From the IMG/VR virus record IMGVR_UViG_3300011115_000879, positions 95,568-159,567 of that record: DNA of 64,000 bases, one strand, 5' to 3'. The stretch's first letter is position 1. Each line of letters opens with the position of its first letter. The notes beneath the pieces were generated by a model. That model saw only the letters and a program-made list of their open reading frames with translations, did no database searches and was not told where the DNA came from. Source of the stretch: a virus. Shown here piece after piece: positions 105-51,913 of this stretch. The position numbers and the translations under genes were made by a program.

Positions 105-1031
105 ATGAAACAACCAATTAACGAAATTAAAAGAATGCAGCAATTAGCTGGTCTTATTACTGAATCACAGTTAAATGAAGTAGAATCGTCTTTACAAACA
201 TATTTAACAAGTATAGAAAAAAATTTAAAAAGTAAACCTGAAGAATTAACAAAAAAGATTACAGATTATTTACATTCTGTTTTTGTTGTAGGAAACGGAA
301 TACCAGGAGTTATAAGTGTCCCTAATCATATATACTATGTTATCCCAAGTAAAAAAGGTGATAACTTTATAACAGTAATGGGATACACAGATAGAGATAA
401 AGGATTTATAGTTAATGATCAAATTTTAAAATGGTTGGTAAGCGCAGATCCATTTTTAAGTAATGAGGCCGCTGAAAAAGTAGTACAATCTTACATACAA
501 GATTCAAAATTAAATACTGGAGGAAAATGGGGAGGATTTGAAAAAATGGGGGATATGTTGAAAAATCAATTTGAAACTAATAAAAAACCAGCAACTGAAC
601 CACAACAAGAATCACAACTAAATGAATACGACGAATATGATGACATCGACACACCAGAATTTGATGACGATCACGACATAGATGCTCAAAAGAAATTCGA
701 TGATATGATAGTAGACGTACCAAGACTACATCAATTGATAAGTAGCTCTCATCACAGAGGAAAAGAAGTAACAATAAATGGTGTTAAAGTTACAGATGTA
801 ACTGGAATAGGAAACATTTTTCTAGAAAATGGTGAAAAATTAAATAGTAAAGAATTTGCTAATGGTGTTCCTGATATCAAAATCAATAACGAACCAATTA
901 ACATTCCATTCACATCATCAAAACCACCAGCACCATTAAATTATAAATCAAGTGATGTATACCCTGCTGGAAGTTATATGGATGAAGTGGTTAATAAAGC
1001 TTTAAAAGAACACCGCAGACAACAAAAATAA
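105..1031 (+). CDS. Capsid-targeted accessory protein, unknown function
   Basis: A 308-residue protein. Its first 20 residues (MKQPINEIKRMQQLAG, then LITE-S) nearly match the N-terminus of the protein at 40193 and resemble the last residues of the scaffold at 1242. The I-T-E/S junction fits the I/L-x-E cleavage rule of T4-type prohead proteases, so the mature protein is probably trimmed and packaged. A second Q-L-N-E junction near residue 173 precedes a very Asp/Glu-rich stretch. No enzymatic domain is recognised. It has its own promoter-like motif and a terminator, so it is a single-gene unit just before the head genes. The packaged role is inference. Confidence 0.75.
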   Translation: MKQPINEIKRMQQLAGLITESQLNEVESSLQTYLTSIEKNLKSKPEELTKKITDYLHSVFVVGNGIPGVISVPNHIYYVIPSKKGDNFITVMGYTDRDKGFIVNDQILKWLVSADPFLSNEAAEKVVQSYIQDSKLNTGGKWGGFEKMGDMLKNQFETNKKPATEPQQESQLNEYDEYDDIDTPEFDDDHDIDAQKKFDDMIVDVPRLHQLISSSHHRGKEVTINGVKVTDVTGIGNIFLENGEKLNSKEFANGVPDIKINNEPINIPFTSSKPPAPLNYKSSDVYPAGSYMDEVVNKALKEHRRQQK

Positions 1032-2334: not shown

Positions 2335-3960
2335 ATGAACGTACAACAATTATTAGAATCATCAAACCAATACAAAACGGTTTCTGATGATGCAAAAAAA
2401 CTTAGTTCCAAGTGGACTAGATCGGGCCTCTTAGAAGGTATTAAAGGCGAAAACGATCGCAATACTATGGCCATGTTGCTTGAAAATCAAGCAAAACAAT
2501 TAGTAACTGAAGCCTCTTCAACTGGTACTGCCTCTCCAGGTAGTGGTGGTTATAATGGTGAATCTTGGAATGGCGTTGCCTTACCATTAGTTCGTCGTGT
2601 ATTCGGTGAAATCGCTGCTAAAGAATTCGTTAGTGTACAACCAATGAACTTACCTTCAGGTCTTGTATTTTATCTTGACTTTAAGTACGGTACTGGTGTT
2701 AAACCATTTGCTCAAAATAGTTCTTTGTATGGCGCTAACGCAACTACAAACGTAACTGATATCGCTTCTGCTTCATTATATGGTGCTGGTAGATTTGGTT
2801 ACTCACTTAACCCATATACAGCTTCTGTAGCTTCTATTTCTTCATCTCTTACTTGGACTGATTTTAATTTTGATGCTGATTATTCAGCTTCTGCCGCTGC
2901 TGGTACTTACAGAAAAATTCAAGTTCCTTTACCGGCTGGATACGATACAAATGGTGTTCGTGCTTTTACAGTTACTTCAGGTTCAACTGATTTACAAGTT
3001 TTAAGTGCATTTACAACTGTAGCTAGTAATACTGGTTCTTTCATTGTAACTGGTTCTTTACTTGCTGGTGTTGTTGGTACTGGTGTAGGTAACTTAATTT
3101 TATCTTATACATTTGCTCCTCAAGATTCTGGTAGTGGTCAATTCCGTGGTGATTTTGAAGACGGCGTTACTAAGAATCCAGGTACTGCTGCTCCATCTAC
3201 AATTGCAATCCCAGAAATTAACGTACAGTTAAAATCTGAACCAATCGTTGCTAAAACTCGTAAGTTGAAAGCACAATGGACACCAGAATTTGCTCAAGAT
3301 TTGAACGCTTACCATAGTGTTGATGCTGAAGCTGAATTAACTGGTATCTTATCTCAATACATTTCAATGGAAATTGATTTGGAATTGATGGATATGTTGA
3401 TTCAAAATGCATTCACTGTTGATTACTGGAGCGCTCAAAACAATACTACTGTTACTGCTGCTGGTGGTGTAGTTGCAAATGCTGCTGCTCAATCCTTCTA
3501 TAACACACAAGGTGGATGGTTCCAAACTTTAGGTACTAAATTACAAAAAGTTAGTAACAAAATTCATCAATTGACATTACGCGGTGGCGCTAATTTCATG
3601 GTAGTTTCTCCAACAGTATCTACTATTTTGGAATCAATTCCAGGATTTGCTGCTGATGGTGATGGTGATAAAATGGAATACAACTTTGGTATTCAAAAGA
3701 TTGGTAGCTTGAACAGTCGTTACAAGGTTTACAAAAACCCATACATGACTGAAAATGTTATCTTGTTAGGATATAAAGGTGCTCAGTTCTTGGAATGTGG
3801 TGCTGTATTTGCTCCATACGTTCCATTGATCATGACTCCATTATTGTATGATCCAACTACATTTACTCCACGTAAAGGTCTTATGACTCGTTACGCGAAG
3901 AAAATGATCCGTCCTGATTACTACGGTAAGATCTATGTTAGTGGTTTGAACACTATCTAA
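2335..3960 (+). CDS. Major capsid protein (gp23-like), copy 1
   Basis: A 541-residue protein. The ATG at 2335 was chosen because its N-terminus (M-N-V-Q-Q-L-L-E-S-S-N-Q-Y) matches that of the second copy; a longer frame from 2251 would overlap the scaffold gene. It has two likely maturation sites: L-L-E/S at residue 8 and L-V-T-E/A at 59-60, close to the E65/A66 site of T4 gp23. The C-terminal part (from about residue 310) is nearly identical to the protein at 4034, whereas residues about 115-310 diverge strongly and probably form the exposed insertion domain. It follows the scaffold gene and is followed by a terminator. Confidence 0.9.
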   Translation: MNVQQLLESSNQYKTVSDDAKKLSSKWTRSGLLEGIKGENDRNTMAMLLENQAKQLVTEASSTGTASPGSGGYNGESWNGVALPLVRRVFGEIAAKEFVSVQPMNLPSGLVFYLDFKYGTGVKPFAQNSSLYGANATTNVTDIASASLYGAGRFGYSLNPYTASVASISSSLTWTDFNFDADYSASAAAGTYRKIQVPLPAGYDTNGVRAFTVTSGSTDLQVLSAFTTVASNTGSFIVTGSLLAGVVGTGVGNLILSYTFAPQDSGSGQFRGDFEDGVTKNPGTAAPSTIAIPEINVQLKSEPIVAKTRKLKAQWTPEFAQDLNAYHSVDAEAELTGILSQYISMEIDLELMDMLIQNAFTVDYWSAQNNTTVTAAGGVVANAAAQSFYNTQGGWFQTLGTKLQKVSNKIHQLTLRGGANFMVVSPTVSTILESIPGFAADGDGDKMEYNFGIQKIGSLNSRYKVYKNPYMTENVILLGYKGAQFLECGAVFAPYVPLIMTPLLYDPTTFTPRKGLMTRYAKKMIRPDYYGKIYVSGLNTI

Positions 3961-4033: not shown

Positions 4034-5737
4034 ATGAATATTCAATCTCTATTAGAATCATCAAACCAATATAAAACGGTTTCTGATGATGCAAAAAAAC
4101 TTAGCACCAAATGGGCTAAGTCTGGCCTTTTAGAAGGCATTAAAAGTGAGAATGATCGTAATACGTTATCTATGTTGCTTGAAAACCAAGCAAAACAACT
4201 TGTAACTGAAGCTTCATCTACAGGTACAGCAGCCGCGGGTGCTGGATCTTATAGTGGTGAAAGTTGGAACGGAGTTGCATTGCCTCTCGTACGTAGAGTA
4301 TTTGGTGAAATTGCAGCAAAAGAATTCGTTTCAGTTCAACCAATGAACTTACCTTCAGGTCTTGTATTTTATCTTGATTTTAAATATGGCACAAATGATG
4401 TTCACTTCAATAACGGTGATTCATTATATGGTGCCAATGCAACTAATAACGTAACTAACATCGCAGGTGAATCACTTTACGGTGCTGGTCAATTCGGCTA
4501 CTCAATCAATAACTTCTCAGCTTCTGTTACTTCTGTAACCGGTGCTTTAGCTACTTGGGTAGATTTTAACTTTAACGATGACTTCTCAGCTTCAGCTGCT
4601 AGTAGCCAGTATAAAAAGATTTTAGTTCCATTACCAACAACAGCCGATACAAATGCTGTTCGTTCATTTTTCATTAGTGGTAGTATTATATCTGGATCAG
4701 TAACAAGTTTTGGTGGGTACGGTGTAACTAATACATCTACTAATTTACTACAAGATTTTACTACTGTAACAAATAATACAGCTTCATTCTTATTAACAGC
4801 ATCTTTATTTACTAATAGTGTTGCTAGTGGTTCTAATCCTACACAAACAACACTTTTATACTTTACTGTAGCTCCAACAACTACAACTCGTGGTGATTTT
4901 GAAGATACTACTTCAGGTGGTGGTTCTGGTACAGCTGGTGGTAATGGTGGTTACCCATCTTTCCAATCCAATAGTACAATCGTTATCCCAGAAATTAACG
5001 TACAGTTAAAATCTGAACCAATTGTTGCTAAGACAAGAAAATTAAAAGCACAATGGACACCGGAATTTGCTCAAGATTTAAATGCATATCATAGTGTTGA
5101 TGCTGAATCAGAATTGACAGGAATTTTATCTCAATATATCTCTATGGAGATTGATTTAGAATTAATGGACATGCTAATTCAAAATGCATTTACAGTAGAT
5201 TATTGGTCAGCACAAAATAACACAACTGTTACTGCTGCTGGTGGTGTAGTTGCAAATGCTGCTGCTCAATCGTTTTATAACACTCAAGGAGGATGGTTCC
5301 AAACACTTGGTACTAAACTTCAGAAAGTATCTAATAAAATTCATCAATTAACACTGAGAGGCGGTGCTAATTTCATGGTAGTTTCTCCAACAGTATCTAC
5401 TGTTTTGGAATCAATTCCTGGATTTGCAGCTGATGGTACAGGTGAAAAACTAGAATATAACTTTGGTATCCAAAAAATAGGTTCATTAAATAGTCGCTAC
5501 AAGGTTTACAAAAATCCTTACATGACTGAGAATGTAATTTTATTAGGATACAAAGGTGCACAATTCCTAGAGTGTGGTGCTGTATTTGCTCCATACGTTC
5601 CATTAATTATGACTCCACTTCTTTACGATCCAAGTACATTCACACCTAGAAAAGGTTTGATGACTAGATACGCTAAAAAGATGATTCGTCCTGATTACTA
5701 CGGTAAAATCTACGTTAGTGGTTTAAATACTATTTAA
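4034..5737 (+). CDS. Major capsid/vertex protein paralogue (gp23/gp24-like), copy 2
   Basis: A 567-residue tandem paralogue of the preceding capsid protein, with the same L-L-E/S and L-V-T-E/A cleavage sites. The first ~115 and last ~240 residues are almost identical to copy 1, while the central region differs and is longer. T4 has a gp23 paralogue, gp24, for the vertices, but gp24 is far more diverged than this. The second copy could therefore be a vertex protein, a host-range variant of the lattice protein, or a co-assembling subunit. No promoter motif lies between the copies, so expression may depend on read-through of the terminator. Confidence 0.88.
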   Translation: MNIQSLLESSNQYKTVSDDAKKLSTKWAKSGLLEGIKSENDRNTLSMLLENQAKQLVTEASSTGTAAAGAGSYSGESWNGVALPLVRRVFGEIAAKEFVSVQPMNLPSGLVFYLDFKYGTNDVHFNNGDSLYGANATNNVTNIAGESLYGAGQFGYSINNFSASVTSVTGALATWVDFNFNDDFSASAASSQYKKILVPLPTTADTNAVRSFFISGSIISGSVTSFGGYGVTNTSTNLLQDFTTVTNNTASFLLTASLFTNSVASGSNPTQTTLLYFTVAPTTTTRGDFEDTTSGGGSGTAGGNGGYPSFQSNSTIVIPEINVQLKSEPIVAKTRKLKAQWTPEFAQDLNAYHSVDAESELTGILSQYISMEIDLELMDMLIQNAFTVDYWSAQNNTTVTAAGGVVANAAAQSFYNTQGGWFQTLGTKLQKVSNKIHQLTLRGGANFMVVSPTVSTVLESIPGFAADGTGEKLEYNFGIQKIGSLNSRYKVYKNPYMTENVILLGYKGAQFLECGAVFAPYVPLIMTPLLYDPSTFTPRKGLMTRYAKKMIRPDYYGKIYVSGLNTI

Positions 5738-8566: not shown

Positions 8567-9187
8567 ATGGCTTATTCAATACGAAAAACATATTGGGCAC
8601 CAGGAGGTGAAGGATTAGGAGGTGGTGGAGGAATAGATGGCCCTTCATCAACAGCAACACCAGATGATGGAACACCCGCAACACCTCCTATAGACCAAGG
8701 TGGAGGAACAGAAACACCATCTGGAGGAGGAGCAGGACCAGCAGATACAGCACTTCAAACAGCAGTAGATTATAGTAATATGAGTGTAATGTATTACAAG
8801 ATCAATCTTGAAAGTACAAAAACTAATATGTATGGTGAGGCGCTAGAAAAATGGTATTACCCACCACTACAAACAAAATGTTTAATTACAAGGGATGCTA
8901 TAACAAATAGCGACGATGAATTTGGTGTAACTGTAGCTAATACTATAACAGTATCTATCCCTAGGATTACATTAGATGGATATCAATTCCTACCAGAAGT
9001 AGGAGATATATTAATGGATAGAGAGAAAATGTATGAAGTAAATAGTATAGACCAAAACTTTATAACATTACCTGGAGGATCAGGACAAGCTCAATCAAAT
9101 GGTACAGCAGGTGTTACTGTTATATTTGTATTAAGCTGTTACTTAACTAGACTTACAAAACTTAATTTAATAGAATATTACCAATGA
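8567..9187 (+). CDS. Neck protein (gp14-like)
   Basis: A 206-residue protein with a Gly/Pro-rich N-terminal arm (about residues 12-60). A compact domain follows containing T-N-M-Y-G-E-A-L-E-K-W-Y-Y-P-P and later G-D-I-L-M-D-R-E-K-M-Y-E-V. The T-N-x-Y-G-E-(A/S)-x-E-K pattern is characteristic of T4 gp14-type neck proteins that close the head after packaging. It starts one base after the preceding stop and overlaps the next start, so translation is probably coupled. Confidence 0.6.
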   Translation: MAYSIRKTYWAPGGEGLGGGGGIDGPSSTATPDDGTPATPPIDQGGGTETPSGGGAGPADTALQTAVDYSNMSVMYYKINLESTKTNMYGEALEKWYYPPLQTKCLITRDAITNSDDEFGVTVANTITVSIPRITLDGYQFLPEVGDILMDREKMYEVNSIDQNFITLPGGSGQAQSNGTAGVTVIFVLSCYLTRLTKLNLIEYYQ

Positions 9188-9522
9188 TAAAATTAACAGA
9201 TTTACTATTAGAATCAACCAATCTGTTTAGAATGGATGCCCTAATTAAAACAACTACTGGTATAAACAAAGTAGAAATATATAATCAAATCAGAGCAATT
9301 ACTGGTGTGGTAGTAATGACTATAGAACAAAGCGAATATTTGGATAGCCAAGCAACAGATAAATTTGAATATTCTTTATTACATATTAAATATTTAGTAA
9401 CATCCGACCCTAAAACAGATATAGAGAAAATTAAAAAAGACGCTCTAATCACAAATAGAATACCAGGGCTATTACAATTTATACCAAGATTAAATACAGC
9501 TAAACAACTAGGAAAATATTAA
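9184..9522 (+). CDS. Small capsid-targeted protein, unknown
   Basis: A 112-residue protein beginning M-I-K-L-T-D-L-L-L-E/S, a prohead-protease-type cleavage site shared with the genes at 9527, 49171 and 49820. The remainder (about 102 residues) is a small alpha/beta protein with no recognised family. The start overlaps the preceding stop (ATGA). Packaging into the head is inferred from the tag; its place among neck genes could instead mean that it is a neck component. Confidence 0.7.
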   Translation: MIKLTDLLLESTNLFRMDALIKTTTGINKVEIYNQIRAITGVVVMTIEQSEYLDSQATDKFEYSLLHIKYLVTSDPKTDIEKIKKDALITNRIPGLLQFIPRLNTAKQLGKY

Positions 9523-9526
9523 TATA

Positions 9527-9874
9527 ATGATAAAACTAACAGATCTAATACAAGAATTAGACGTACCACAAAACATATATAAACCAGGAGTAAAACCAGA
9601 ATCTGATGATGAATTCATGAAAAAAGGATTCAAAATGAGTCAAACTACTGTTGATCCTGAAACCGGAGCTTCTACATCAAATGTAGAATATTTACCATCA
9701 TTTGAACAAATTCGTAAAGATATCATAATGACACGTAGAGAATTTCAACCATTTAAATTTTCATCTAATCCTGATATAGCTAAATTGGCTAAAGATATTA
9801 ATATGCACTTAACTAAAGCTTCTAACATGATTTTCGCTTTAGATAAAATGGTTGAATTACAAAGAAAAGGATAA
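9527..9874 (+). CDS. Small capsid-targeted protein, unknown
   Basis: A 115-residue protein beginning M-I-K-L-T-D-L-I-Q-E/L, so it carries the same tag and I/L-x-E site as its neighbour at 9184. The C-terminal ~35 residues look helical and basic. No domain is recognised. It is tightly packed between 9522 and 9877, consistent with one operon from the neck to tail completion genes. Confidence 0.68.
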   Translation: MIKLTDLIQELDVPQNIYKPGVKPESDDEFMKKGFKMSQTTVDPETGASTSNVEYLPSFEQIRKDIIMTRREFQPFKFSSNPDIAKLAKDINMHLTKASNMIFALDKMVELQRKG

Positions 9875-39680: not shown

Positions 39681-40150
39681 TGAGTAACAAAATATCATTA
39701 GTGAACAATCCTAACATATTTATGGGTAATGAATGGCAACCCAACACAGATTTAATGAACAAACTATTTTGTACTTTTACCTTACTAATTGACTTAGAGG
39801 AGACAGTAACCGCGATTAACAGGAAATATTCAATATTATTTGGTAAAATATTTATCCTTGAATCACCACAGAGCGACGAATTGATATGCACATACAATAT
39901 CGATACTAACAACATGGCGACAACGCCAATGGATAATACAATCCTATTACATCGTAAAAAGGAATCCAATACATTATACACCATTAATGCCTTAAACACA
40001 TTGATTAAATCATTGAATGAAGGGTATTTAGATAAAAATTACATGGTGAATTGGGCTGACTATAAAAACAGTATATTATTAACTAATGGTCCTGAATTAA
40101 GGAAATTAGATACATCAATCCATAAAATAGTAGATTTTAGTAGAAATTAA
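39680..40150 (+). CDS. Hypothetical protein coupled to the PolA-like gene
   Basis: A 156-residue protein of no known family. Its start shares one base with the stop of the PolA-like gene, suggesting translational coupling and a shared function, for example as a polymerase accessory. Nothing in the sequence proves this. Confidence 0.55.
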   Translation: MSNKISLVNNPNIFMGNEWQPNTDLMNKLFCTFTLLIDLEETVTAINRKYSILFGKIFILESPQSDELICTYNIDTNNMATTPMDNTILLHRKKESNTLYTINALNTLIKSLNEGYLDKNYMVNWADYKNSILLTNGPELRKLDTSIHKIVDFSRN

Positions 40151-40192: not shown

Positions 40193-40702
40193 ATGAAACA
40201 ACCGATCAACGAAATCCGCAGAATGCAGCAATTAGCTGGGTTAATTGTGGAGGCATTTAATTCTTTTTTAGATACAGATATGGGAGGGTGGATAAGAGAA
40301 TATATTGATGATGTTGTTGAAGATAATATGGGCGAACCAGAATCATTAAATTTAGAATATCGTTCTGATTTTGATATAGCTTTTAATTTAGCTCTTTCTA
40401 AGCTTTCCCAAGAACAATTTCCATTATATATATCAGATGATTCTAAATTAGCTCCTGGATTTATTGAACCTAAAGGAATTGGATTTGTAATGAATAATAA
40501 TAAAGAAACAATAACACCAGAAATGGTTCAAATATTTAATAATAATTATGGTATAATTGATATTAACTATATTAGAGATTTCTTTACAAACGCAAATAAT
40601 TGGAAGATGATTACTGATGAAAATGATATATCTAATTATAAAAAATTATATTTAATTGATACTAAAAGTAATCAAATAGGTAATAAAGAAAGTTTCTTTT
40701 AA
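40193..40702 (+). CDS. Capsid-targeted accessory protein, unknown function
   Basis: A 169-residue protein. The N-terminal tag M-K-Q-P-I-N-E-I-R-R-M-Q-Q-L-A-G-L-I-V-E/A is nearly the same as in the gene at 105 and ends at an I-V-E/A cleavage-type site. The following ~150 residues are acidic and Asn-rich, with no recognised domain. A late-type motif just upstream fits a virion protein although the flanking genes are replicative. Injection with DNA is inferred. Confidence 0.72.
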   Translation: MKQPINEIRRMQQLAGLIVEAFNSFLDTDMGGWIREYIDDVVEDNMGEPESLNLEYRSDFDIAFNLALSKLSQEQFPLYISDDSKLAPGFIEPKGIGFVMNNNKETITPEMVQIFNNNYGIIDINYIRDFFTNANNWKMITDENDISNYKKLYLIDTKSNQIGNKESFF

Positions 40703-46164: not shown

Positions 46165-46173
46165 ATATTTATA
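46165..46173 (+). promoter_or_regulatory. Late-promoter-like motif ATATTTATA
   Basis: Ends 22 nt before the thioredoxin gene; unexpected in a nucleotide-metabolism operon. Confidence 0.45.
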
Positions 46174-47417: not shown

Positions 47418-49142
47418 ATGAGCATACAAGTAGACACAGATAACTGGATTAAAGGAAAGAACTATCCAGTTTGGATGGATGAAATAGCGGTAAGTATGAT
47501 ATCAAAAGGATATCTATTACCAGATGAAGATGTATTTGATGCTTATAAAAGAGTAAGTAAAGCAGCAGCACGTAGATTAAGACGTAAAGACTTACAACCG
47601 TTCTTCAACGAAGCAATTGTAAAAAACTGGTTATGTTTAGCATCACCTGTATTATCAAATTTAGGTACTGAACGTGGAATGCCTATTTCATGTTTCGGAA
47701 TTGATGTAGGTGATGCTATTGAAGGTATTGCTGATGCAAATTCAGAATTAATGCGCTTATCATCTCAAGGTGGTGGTGTTGGTATTAGTGTATCTCGTAT
47801 TAGAGGTAGAGGTAAAACTATTAGAGACAATGGTACATCTGAAGGTGTAGTTCCATGGTGTAAAATTTATGATTCAACTATCCTAGCAACAAATCAAGGA
47901 TCAGTTAGAAGAGGAGCAGCATCAGTTAATTTATCTATTAACCACCCAGACGTTGAAGAATTTTTAGGAATCCGTAGACCAAAAGGTGATGTAAATCGTC
48001 AATGTTTAAATCTACACCAATGTGTAGTAATTGATGATTCATTCATGGAAAAATTAGAAAACAAAGACGAACGCTCAATGCGTTTATGGGGTGAAATTTT
48101 AAAAACACGTCTTGAAACAGGTGAACCTTATATCATGTTTGAAGATAATGTTAATAAAGCTAATCCTGAAGGATATAAGAAACTGAATCTACACGTTTCA
48201 ATGACAAACATCTGTAGTGAAATTTCATTATACACAGATGAATTACATTCATTCATTTGCTGCTTATCATCATTGAATTTAGCACGTTGGGATGAATGGA
48301 AAGAATATAAGTTTGAGAATGGAATGTCATTACCTGAATTGACATGTTGGTTTCTAGAAGGTGTACTACAAGAATTCATTGATAGAGCTAAGAACATTAA
48401 ATTCATGGAAAATACAGTTCGCTCCGCATCTAAAGGTAGAGCAATTGGAATTGGCGTTTTAGGATGGCATACATTACTACAATCAAAGAATTTACCATTT
48501 GTAGGAATACAAGCATCAGCATTAACAAGAATCATCTCAGCATTCATTGAAACTGAAGCATTAAAAGCATCACGCGATCAAGCAGTACAATACGGAGAAC
48601 CAGAATGGTGTAAAGGTACTGGATTGAGACACTCACATCATTTAGCGATTGCACCAACAGTATCAAACGCTCATATTTCAGGTGGTGTATCTCCATCAAT
48701 TGAACCTATTCCAGCTAATGTATACAATCTTAAAACGGCGAAAGGAGTATTTATCAAACGAAATAAAATACTAGAAGCGTTATTAGAGAGTAAGGGTTAT
48801 AACATTGATAGCGTTTGGGATCAGATTTTAAAAGATCAAGGATCAGTAATTAATATTCCTAGCTACATCTTAACAGATGAAGAAAAAGCAGTATTCTTAA
48901 CATTTAAGGAAATTAATCAATTAGAAATAGTAAAACAAAACGCTATTAGACAAAAATACGTTGATCAAGCTATTTCATTGAATTTATGTTTCGATCCAAA
49001 CGATACTCCAAAATTCATATCTCAAGTACATAAAGAAGCACATAAATTAGGAATTAAAACATTATACTACCTACGTACTGAATCAGTATTGAGAGGAGAT
49101 AATTTACAAAGGTTATCATCTTGCGTATCTTGTGAAGGATAG
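47418..49142 (+). CDS. nrdA: Class I ribonucleotide reductase alpha subunit (short)
   Basis: A 574-residue R1 protein, short because no N-terminal ATP-cone is present. It keeps the key residues: C in P-I-S-C-F-G, N-I-C-S-E and C-C-L-S-S-L-N-L for catalysis, the Tyr pair in T-L-Y-Y-L-R, and a C-terminal S-C-V-S-C pair that is re-reduced by thioredoxin. Loss of the ATP-cone means overall activity is probably not shut down by dATP, useful for a phage (inference). Confidence 0.93.
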   Translation: MSIQVDTDNWIKGKNYPVWMDEIAVSMISKGYLLPDEDVFDAYKRVSKAAARRLRRKDLQPFFNEAIVKNWLCLASPVLSNLGTERGMPISCFGIDVGDAIEGIADANSELMRLSSQGGGVGISVSRIRGRGKTIRDNGTSEGVVPWCKIYDSTILATNQGSVRRGAASVNLSINHPDVEEFLGIRRPKGDVNRQCLNLHQCVVIDDSFMEKLENKDERSMRLWGEILKTRLETGEPYIMFEDNVNKANPEGYKKLNLHVSMTNICSEISLYTDELHSFICCLSSLNLARWDEWKEYKFENGMSLPELTCWFLEGVLQEFIDRAKNIKFMENTVRSASKGRAIGIGVLGWHTLLQSKNLPFVGIQASALTRIISAFIETEALKASRDQAVQYGEPEWCKGTGLRHSHHLAIAPTVSNAHISGGVSPSIEPIPANVYNLKTAKGVFIKRNKILEALLESKGYNIDSVWDQILKDQGSVINIPSYILTDEEKAVFLTFKEINQLEIVKQNAIRQKYVDQAISLNLCFDPNDTPKFISQVHKEAHKLGIKTLYYLRTESVLRGDNLQRLSSCVSCEG

Positions 49143-49157
49143 GCAAAACAAAAACAT

Positions 49158-49201
49158 TAAATTCACAACAATGATAAAATTAATTGATTTACTAAACGAA
49201 G
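49158..49201 (+). repeat. 44-bp exact direct repeat over start region and capsid tag, copy 1
   Basis: Identical to 49807-49850. It covers the leader, the ATG and the codons for M-I-K-L-I-D-L-L-N-E. An exact repeat at DNA level, including non-coding bases, points to recent duplication or recombination at the tag. Confidence 0.85.
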
Positions 49202-49809
49202 ATATTAATGGGGGTATTGTTTATACCTATAGAAGTCAAAAAAGCCTACCAGATATAGAAGCTAATGGTATAAAAATGTCAGATAAAAATAAACAAAATT
49301 CTGAAGATTATAACATTCCTGATTATGGGTATACTTATTATACTTCTACTAGTAAAGATCCTAATTGGATTGATAAAAACCCATATGGAGATGCTAATGC
49401 TCCGTATACTGTAAGAATATCTATAGATTTAAATAAAATAAAAAACGATAAAAACTATAGTTTTAAAGATTTAGATGATGTAGAAGAATGGAACTACCCA
49501 GAATATCAAGAAGTAAGAATATACTCTAATACAAAAAATAGAATACCTTTAGAATATATTAGTTCTATTGATATTCTTAGAAGAAGATCAGGAGATGAGT
49601 ATGGATGGGACTTTACTGGTCAACTTAATTTAGAACCAGAAGTAAAAACATATATTGATAATACTTTTAAAGATAATCCAGACTTAGATGAAGATTCTTT
49701 TCCATATGATGAAATGTATGATTACTTTACAGAATTTTGGAATCATGAAGATGAATCTTATGATAGTGCTTCTCAAGAAGTTAAGGACTATATAAAATCT
49801 AAAAAATAA
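49171..49809 (+). CDS. Capsid-targeted Alt-like ADP-ribosyltransferase (putative)
   Basis: A 212-residue protein. The ATG at 49171 gives M-I-K-L-I-D-L-L-N-E/D, the shared capsid tag; a frame from 49132 overlaps nrdA and lacks the tag. The body shows R-S-E-type transferase signs: T-Y-R-S-Q-K-S-L-P (T4 Alt has L-Y-R-S-Q-T-M-L-P), then Y-Y-T-S-T-S, then E-Y-Q-E-V-R-I. In T4, Alt is processed in the head and injected to modify host RNA polymerase. The same route is inferred here; the activity is not proven. Confidence 0.65.
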   Translation: MIKLIDLLNEDINGGIVYTYRSQKSLPDIEANGIKMSDKNKQNSEDYNIPDYGYTYYTSTSKDPNWIDKNPYGDANAPYTVRISIDLNKIKNDKNYSFKDLDDVEEWNYPEYQEVRIYSNTKNRIPLEYISSIDILRRRSGDEYGWDFTGQLNLEPEVKTYIDNTFKDNPDLDEDSFPYDEMYDYFTEFWNHEDESYDSASQEVKDYIKSKK

Positions 49810-49850
49810 ATTCACAACAATGATAAAATTAATTGATTTACTAAACGAAG
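49807..49850 (+). repeat. 44-bp exact direct repeat, copy 2
   Basis: Second copy of the sequence at 49158-49201. It begins on the stop codon of the upstream gene and ends after the tag codons of the downstream gene. Confidence 0.85.
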
Positions 49851-50206
49851 CCGCACAAGGAAATGTTTTATATCACTATACGGAAGAATGGCAATTGAAA
49901 AAAATTATAGAAAGTAATATTTTAAAAGGACCTGTTAGCCTAACTAGAAGTAAAGACTCAATTGTAAAAAACTGGATGGGGAATGTACCAATAATAGTTT
50001 TAGATAAAGATAAATTACGTACTAATTATAAAATAAAACCATATCAAAGTTATGATGATGAAGGCAATTTTGAAGATGAAATGGAAGAAGTAATAGATAA
50101 AAGTATTACTAATTTAGACAAATATATAGTTAATATTATTTTACCTAAAGCTAACCCAGAAATTGAGTCTTTATTAAAAGAAAAAAATATTAAATTCACG
50201 TTATGA
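49820..50206 (+). CDS. Capsid-targeted small ADP-ribosyltransferase-like protein (putative)
   Basis: A 128-residue protein with the tag M-I-K-L-I-D-L-L-N-E/A. The body starts V-L-Y-H-Y-T, followed by an L-K-K-I-I-E-S-N-I-L helix and S-L-T-R-S, the usual opening of small transferase-fold (H-type) proteins. Near residue 90 it has D-E-M-E-E-V-I-D, where a catalytic Glu would be expected. It is not homologous to its neighbour beyond the tag, so the two may hit different targets. Enzyme activity is inference. Confidence 0.58.
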   Translation: MIKLIDLLNEAAQGNVLYHYTEEWQLKKIIESNILKGPVSLTRSKDSIVKNWMGNVPIIVLDKDKLRTNYKIKPYQSYDDEGNFEDEMEEVIDKSITNLDKYIVNIILPKANPEIESLLKEKNIKFTL

Positions 50207-51298: not shown

Positions 51299-51913
51299 AT
51301 GATAGGTATCTATAAAATTACAAATCCTGAAAATAAAGTCTATATTGGTTATACTACAAACTTATATAAACGTGAAAATTATTATAAGGTAAATAAAGGT
51401 ATAAGACAAACTAAATTATATAATTCTATTATTCAACATGGTTGGGAACAACATAAAGTTGAATTAATTGAAGAATGTATTAAAGATGAATTAAGAGATA
51501 AAGAACAATATTGGATTAAATGTTATGACAGTTGGAATAACGGCTTAAACTCAAATCCAGGAGGTGGTGGAATAATAACACATACTGAAAAAACAAAACA
51601 ACTTATAAGTAAAAAAGGACGAGCTCATAAAGGAAAACGAATTGAATCTCATTGGAAAGGTAAAAGTAGAGGTGAAGAATTTGCTTACAATATGTCATTA
51701 GCTAGAACAGGTAAATCTAACCCTAAAAATGCTAAACAAGTATTACAATACGATATAGAAGGAAATTTCATTAAAGAATGGTTTTCTATCAGAGAAGCCA
51801 ACTTATATTTAGGTAAGAATAAAGATAGCGGGCATATAAACGCATGCTGTAAAGGACAAATTAAATCAGCTTATAAATTTAAATGGACATATAAATATGA
51901 AGAGATTTCATGA
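51299..51913 (+). CDS. GIY-YIG homing endonuclease with NUMOD-type DNA-binding tail
   Basis: A 204-residue protein. The catalytic domain opens I-G-I-Y-K-I-T and K-V-Y-I-G-Y-T, with an Arg in Y-K-R and an E in E-Q-Y-W-I. The C-terminal half has Q-V-L-Q-Y-D-I-E-G-N-F-I-K-E-W, a NUMOD1-like module, and H-I-N-A-C-C-K-G. It is a mobile endonuclease inserted between modification genes; its end overlaps the DpdA-like start by 17 bases. Confidence 0.88.
   Translation: MIGIYKITNPENKVYIGYTTNLYKRENYYKVNKGIRQTKLYNSIIQHGWEQHKVELIEECIKDELRDKEQYWIKCYDSWNNGLNSNPGGGGIITHTEKTKQLISKKGRAHKGKRIESHWKGKSRGEEFAYNMSLARTGKSNPKNAKQVLQYDIEGNFIKEWFSIREANLYLGKNKDSGHINACCKGQIKSAYKFKWTYKYEEIS

Follow-up and report, generated by a model that had tools for sequence, protein, structure and literature searches.

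In bacteriophage T4, the prohead protease gp21 cleaves after L/I-X-E, and the capsid-targeting sequence (CTS) is about ten residues long (PMC9026906). The T4 ADP-ribosyltransferase (ART) Alt is cleaved at ITE-6 and LTE-619 (PMC5694885). Packaged ARTs, predicted in myovirus heads, and injected polyvalent proteins have already been proposed (PMC9503650, PMC5512222). Here we describe two tandem genes of an uncultured phage, P1 and P2, which resemble T4 Alt and the internal proteins IPI-III in having an N-terminal leader of about ten residues that ends in (L/I)-x-E (PMC9026906, PMC5694885), as well as in the S77 prohead protease encoded in the same genome, the ART as cargo, and the head-packaging logic. 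In contrast to the 682-aa Alt precursor, the bodies after the leader are 118 (P2) and 202 aa (P1) long; P2 is an H-type ART, unlike the R-S-E type Alt, and P1 has no significant profile similarity to Alt. Furthermore, and again unlike Alt and the internal proteins, the genes lie in an nrd operon, one leader type is common to many unrelated proteins, and packaging is inferred here.

The fold of P2, its LYH block and a partial Pfam match are shared with Tox-ART-HYD1 (PF15633), Tpt1/KptA and DarT, whereas P2 falls below the Pfam cut-off and carries a prohead-protease-type leader; no toxin-delivery or antitoxin context was observed in its setting. Phage polyvalent proteins, like the polyproteins described below, join ART, NMNAT-like and zincin-like modules into a single chain and are thought to be injected; for these, self-processing by the zincin was proposed by the authors (PMC5512222, PMC9503650), whereas here L/I-N-E sites of the S77 type divide the modules, and the same ART module also occurs as a free, individually tagged protein. 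In the open-access literature, we found no description of the shared leader family, of its use on many unrelated bodies, or of L/I-N-E-separated polyproteins with the same ART. We consider it likely that P1 and P2 are head-packaged effectors, predicted to work in the manner of T4 Alt and IPI-III, being cleaved and injected.

Phage Genome and Head Genes

The window (the whole stretch of DNA that was analyzed) covers the final 64 kb of an uncultured phage record that is 159,567 bases long. Judged by its predicted genes, the phage is T4-like, encoding a terminase, an S77 prohead protease, and a scaffold, together with two gp23-like major capsid proteins (MCPs) in tandem. The terminase is closest to that of Flavobacterium phage immuto (54% identity), and the host is probably a Flavobacteria-type bacterium. 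The head genes in the window are as follows (arrows mark cleavage sites, predicted in this phage):

1-81, + strand: 3' end of the S77 (gp21-type) prohead protease gene (whole gene G000:C1:95034-95648)
105-1031, + strand: tagged protein with the second leader type, MKQPINEIKRMQQLAGLITE↓S
1242-2306, + strand: gp22-like scaffold, C-terminus TIVE↓SNDAIKRMQKLANIIK, whose RMQKLA box also occurs in the second leader type
2335-3960, + strand: MCP 1, with QLVTE↓ASSTG in register with FLTE↓AEIGG of T4 gp23
4034-5737, + strand: MCP 2, with the same cleavage site as MCP 1

The protease, encoded in the same genome as P1 and P2, matches Pfam Peptidase_S77 (E=4.8e-31), aligns with T4 gp21 across the GELDHP and GISSRG blocks, and has LxE-type sites near both termini, the C-terminal one being aligned in 3/3 phages compared. 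At the T4 gp23 cleavage-site column, where both MCPs have the site listed, the MCP of the cultured relative has IVSE↓ANVTG. An S77 protease is also encoded in 7/7 records above 120 kb that carry P2-type bodies. The two tandem MCP genes (2335-3960 and 4034-5737) are both full-length and 82% identical.

Tandem Tagged Genes Behind nrdA

46165-46173, + strand: ATATTTATA box, late-promoter-like, upstream of the thioredoxin gene, nrdB, nrdA, P1, and P2
47418-49142, + strand: nrdA, ribonucleotide reductase large subunit (named from sequence), directly upstream neighbor of P1
49158-49201, + strand: 44-bp exact repeat, copy 1, comprising 13 nt upstream, the MIKLIDLLNE leader, and 1 nt
49171-49809, + strand: P1, 212 aa, leader MIKLIDLLNE↓D, ART-family-related domain (YRSQ, STS, EYQE), and C-terminal helical module
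49171-49200, + strand: P1 capsid-targeting-type leader, predicted cleavage after E10 (LNE↓D)
49807-49850, + strand: 44-bp exact repeat, copy 2, beginning with the TAA stop of P1
49820-50206, + strand: P2, 128 aa, leader MIKLIDLLNE↓A, and H-type ART domain (LYHYT, SLTR, EMEE)
49820-49849, + strand: P2 capsid-targeting-type leader, predicted cleavage after E10 (LNE↓A)

The initial annotation had described tandem open reading frames that both start with MIKLIDLLNE, lie beside nrdA, and share an exact 44-bp DNA repeat across leader and tag, and each of these features was confirmed. The P1 start was placed at 49171, and a longer GTG start at 49132 was rejected because it is not conserved in relatives. 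After the leader, the chains continue with D-I-N-G-G (P1) and A-A-Q-G (P2); in relatives, the P1 junction is LNE↓A (L001 and L003) or LKE↓N (L004).

The 30-nt leader DNA is identical in P1 and P2, with no further match at up to three mismatches and 0.00 expected in shuffles, an identity that suggests a recent copying event. The leader DNA of the six other MIKL leaders of this phage has only 19-25 of 30 nt in common with it; thus, the peptide is kept generally, and conservation of the DNA is limited to the P1/P2 pair. Because the codons differ among same-phage leaders (except P1 vs. P2), selection acts on the peptide. The upstream TAAATTCAC part of the repeat was considered as a general phage signal and set aside as weakly supported: AATTCAC occurs in 4/213 upstream regions vs. 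0.57 expected, and two of the four are those of P1 and P2.

ADP-Ribosyltransferase Bodies

P2 contains the motifs LYHYT (17-21), T42-R43, and E89-E90. Residues L17, Y18, H19, T21, T42, R43, E89, and E90 are invariant among eight homologs, and the family as a whole conserves Y18-H19-x-T21, T42-R43, and E89, with E90 nearly always present. An AlphaFold2 (AF2) model built from 37 sequences (pLDDT 82.7) was used for a fold search, in which the best 14 PDB matches are all ARTs of the Tpt1/KptA or DarT kind (prob 0.99-1.00 for Tpt1/KptA; prob 0.94-1.00 and TM 0.53-0.62 for DarT), with modest E-values, none below 0.001; sixteen viral models match at E<0.001. Against Pfam Tox-ART-HYD1 (PF15633), P2 scores 20 bits, below the curated cut-off of 25, and the match covers positions 1-22 of 97 only; a partial match at E<=0.01 is found in 10/37 members of the family, the best at 1.3e-6. 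As modeled, P2 is an ART-superfamily protein of the H-type and of the KptA/DarT/HYD1 kind, with H19, R43, and E89/E90 as the probable catalytic residues. The H-type assignment made initially is upheld, and the proposed structure prediction and fold search returned an ART fold for P2.

We regard it as unlikely that P2 is instead an RNA 2'-phosphotransferase-like repair enzyme or an NADase, not host-modifying, with P1 as a degenerate relative. The best single fold matches are indeed Tpt1/KptA, with aligned LYHGT and an IDxxxLxNKYKI stretch, and P1 is without the aligned H, but the glutamate pair E89/E90 is conserved as in transferring ARTs, the partial ART-HYD1 match recurs among the 37 members, and it is the DarT matches that have the higher TM-scores.

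PDB sequence searches with P1 or P2 singly gave no matches, tblastn against cultured phages returned nothing for P1 and weak matches only for P2, and PADLOC gave no relevant output. Among bacterial genome contigs, no P2 relative could be confirmed, which leaves a recent origin from a host without support.

In P1, the motifs YRSQ (20-23), STS (59-61), and E-Y-Q-E (111-114) are invariant in four homologs. Tagless P1 scores 36.8 against the P2-family profile, vs. at most 18.6 for 40 column-shuffled controls; by this comparison, P1 is a distant homolog of the P2 family with a different motif set, having R/STS where P2 has H/TR. The two bodies are therefore related ART-family members and not two independent classes, which corrects the earlier reading of "two different ADP-ribosyltransferase classes." The C-terminal helical module of P1 recurs in L108, a HYD1-type ART protein. 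The AF2 model of P1, made with four close homologs, has a pLDDT of 41 and was left out of the fold search.

All of the motifs named initially (YRSQ and STS in P1, LYHYT in P2) exist and are conserved in homologs. For the R-S-E type assigned to P1, the presence and conservation of YRSQ and STS held, but the similarity to Alt did not exceed the shuffled null. The YRSQ..LP.I stretch and STS align with the R and STS of Alt, with E-Y-Q-E instead of E-x-E, and these Alt-like motifs are only suggestive. When membership of P1 in the Alt family was examined, the profile comparison with 11 Alt relatives gave 17.3, vs. a column-shuffled maximum of 17.9. A YRSQ motif scan for further proteins recovered known P1 relatives only. 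The activity of P1 is predicted, and is less certain than that of P2.

A Leader Family With L-x-E Sites

Proteins starting with M[IM]K[LIF] number eight in this phage, vs. 0.27 expected, and 11 and 7 in two relatives (G003 and G005, respectively). Across seven phage records, [LIVMF]-x-E ending at residues 9-16 is found in 29/31 such leaders vs. 176/848 other proteins (Fisher p=2.7e-17), with the E exactly at residue 10 in 24 of the 31. Further tagged proteins in the window are:

9184-9522, + strand: 112-aa protein, leader MIKLTDLLLE↓S
9527-9874, + strand: 115-aa protein, leader MIKLTDLIQE↓L
40193-40702, + strand: 169-aa protein, leader MKQPINEIRRMQQLAGLIVE↓A, with a ATATTTATA box at 40150

Other phages were scanned for P2-type bodies with patterns (Q-[VFG]-[GN]-x-LYH or the KLSN-YK block) that leave the E and its preceding residues free. 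In 59/60 distinct sequences, the body lies directly behind [LIMVF]-x-E↓[GAS], in 38/39 cases with a short leader and in 21/21 within polyproteins. The sequences upstream of these bodies are unrelated, e.g., MIKLIDLLNE, MKKSQLKQIIKEEIRKVLSE, MNKEQLRMQMLAGIITE, MKRFKEFLNE, MKYYDILKLLE, or other modules running to hundreds of residues. Conversely, the leader type is found on unrelated bodies, including zeta-toxin-type kinases, and immuto, the cultured relative, has other leaders of the same kind. It is well supported by these comparisons that the leader represents a modular capsid-targeting tag of the S77-protease type; the cleavage junction read initially agrees with the leaders, the ART bodies, the S77 protease, and the MCP site alike. 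The [LIMVF]-x-E beside the ART body could be partly inherited with the domain, though the upstream sequences are unrelated. Zeta-toxin-type kinases with the leader MIKLVDLLxE are encoded at L063:7141-7938 and L013:8800-9624 and match Pfam PF06414 above the cut-off.

The P2-type ART also occurs within polyproteins of 440-1384 aa. These contain up to ten copies of L/I-N-E, vs. 0.3-1.5 expected, mostly at module joints, where they precede NMNAT-like, HEMIHH zincin-like, ART, or zinc-ribbon modules; apart from ART, these names come from motifs in the sequence, and when one polyprotein chain was scanned against Pfam, none of the motif-named modules was identified. In the polyproteins L066, L067, L069, L074-L095, L120, and L140, we observed NMNAT-like GGGFKPPTKGH, HEMIHH zincin-like, ART, zinc-ribbon ECDNCDWSW, and CWKGY..VPNCVPR modules, many of which immediately follow L/I-N-E. 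The same phage, outside the window, encodes a 1149-aa protein (G000:C1:71129-74578) with an NMNAT-like IFPGAFKPPHKGH motif and a C-terminal AHELVH zincin-like motif.

These leaders bear on another explanation, in which P1 and P2, as ARTs or proteins with an ART fold, would be expressed early with the nrd operon and act within the producing cell, their shared start being a duplicated translation-initiation cassette and not a packaging tag. Such a cassette would fit the position behind nrdA, the identical 13 nt upstream plus leader DNA, and the lack of a late-type box close by. We find it improbable: the same peptide, in other codons, heads the six further proteins of this phage, and LxE precedes the ART body inside polyproteins too, where initiation plays no part.

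With about even odds, the T4-like phages of this clade have a general code of cleavable addresses, in which several unrelated L-x-E-ended leaders and L/I-N-E-joined polyproteins load and release interchangeable injected enzymes (ARTs, zeta-type kinases, NMNAT-like, zincin-like, and zinc ribbons) via one prohead protease, the code being readable from sequence to predict head cargo. If so, a ten-residue leader and an L-x-E site would list the injected effectors of many uncultured T4-like phages from sequence alone, one ART body would move between a free tagged and a protease-separated polyprotein form, and what T4-like phages inject, along with its targets, would become testable in immuto.

Proposed Packaging and Release of P1 and P2

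Packaging, cleavage, injection, and catalysis of P1 and P2 are what we infer from these features; we found no published virion proteome for this phage group in the open-access literature. Both proteins would be made as precursors bearing the ten-residue capsid-targeting leader, which would carry them into the prohead core. There, the S77 protease would cut after L-N-E, as expected for the MCP, leaving a trimmed effector that would be expelled with the DNA and act early in infection. P2 may then transfer ADP-ribose from NAD+ to a host target (protein or nucleic acid), and P1 would belong to the same extended family as a divergent relative in which R/STS replaces H/TR.

Caution is warranted on two points. 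The P1 junction (E↓D, and LKE↓N in one relative), unlike the usual A/G/S, counts against the cleavage reading. The timing is the second: P1 and P2 lie in the nrd operon and not with the head genes, and no late-type box occurs within 100 nt of them, the nearest being 3 kb upstream, before the thioredoxin gene.

That the leader targets the prohead core or another phage structure with no cutting or no injection, the role being in assembly (e.g., modifying scaffold or capsid proteins), is a doubtful reading to which the separability of targeting and cleavage in T4 CTS work (PMC9026906), the E↓D junction of P1, and the several tagged genes among head and neck genes (9184, 9527) lend something, but the P3, P1, and P1' residues conserved in 59/60 ART homologs are most readily explained by cleavage, and the tagged bodies are of host-directed kinds (ART, zeta-toxin-type kinase).

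Turnover at the nrd Locus and Late-Type Boxes

Tagged genes, like those of P1 and P2, lie in varying arrangements beside the nrd genes of relatives. The P1 gene stands alone behind a 616-617-aa ribonucleotide reductase gene in L003 and L004, and in L001 a GIY-YIG-type endonuclease gene lies between the two. A P2-type gene is alone behind the ribonucleotide reductase gene in L009, and in L108 it sits between nrdB and nrdA, with a different tagged gene (MKKSELKQIIKEEIEKVLKE) after nrdA. The nrd region is therefore a site of tagged-gene gain and loss, and it looks like a general cargo hotspot. The role of the 44-bp repeat as a recombination handle, suggested initially, is unproven: since either gene occurs alone, or other tagged genes lie beside nrd, sometimes with a GIY-YIG gene, other exchange routes are equally open, and the turnover fits leader-mediated and endonuclease-driven exchange equally. 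GIY-YIG-type endonuclease genes (named from sequence) occur at 51299-51913 in the window, near P1/P2, and at L001:5374-6000, directly before P1.

The ATATTTATA box has 18 sites in the window (e.g., 5801, 6513, 40150, 46165), vs. 6.5 expected. Of these, 16 lie on the + strand. The box is enriched upstream of head and tail genes and is a probable late-promoter core, unlike the TATAAATA of T4.

The box [KR][KR]MQ.LA[GN]I is present in N-terminal leaders of the form MKQPINEI(R/K)RMQQLAGLI.E, and the same or a close form is found at the C-terminus of the scaffold and of two other proteins. It appears to be a second element for head targeting, one that can be used at either end of a protein. Sites occur in the window (105-1031, 1242-2306, 40193-40702), at G000:C1 81438, 86273, and 88021, and in L153 (gp083 and gp067), and the scaffold of the cultured relative ends in SRWQKLAGIIK.
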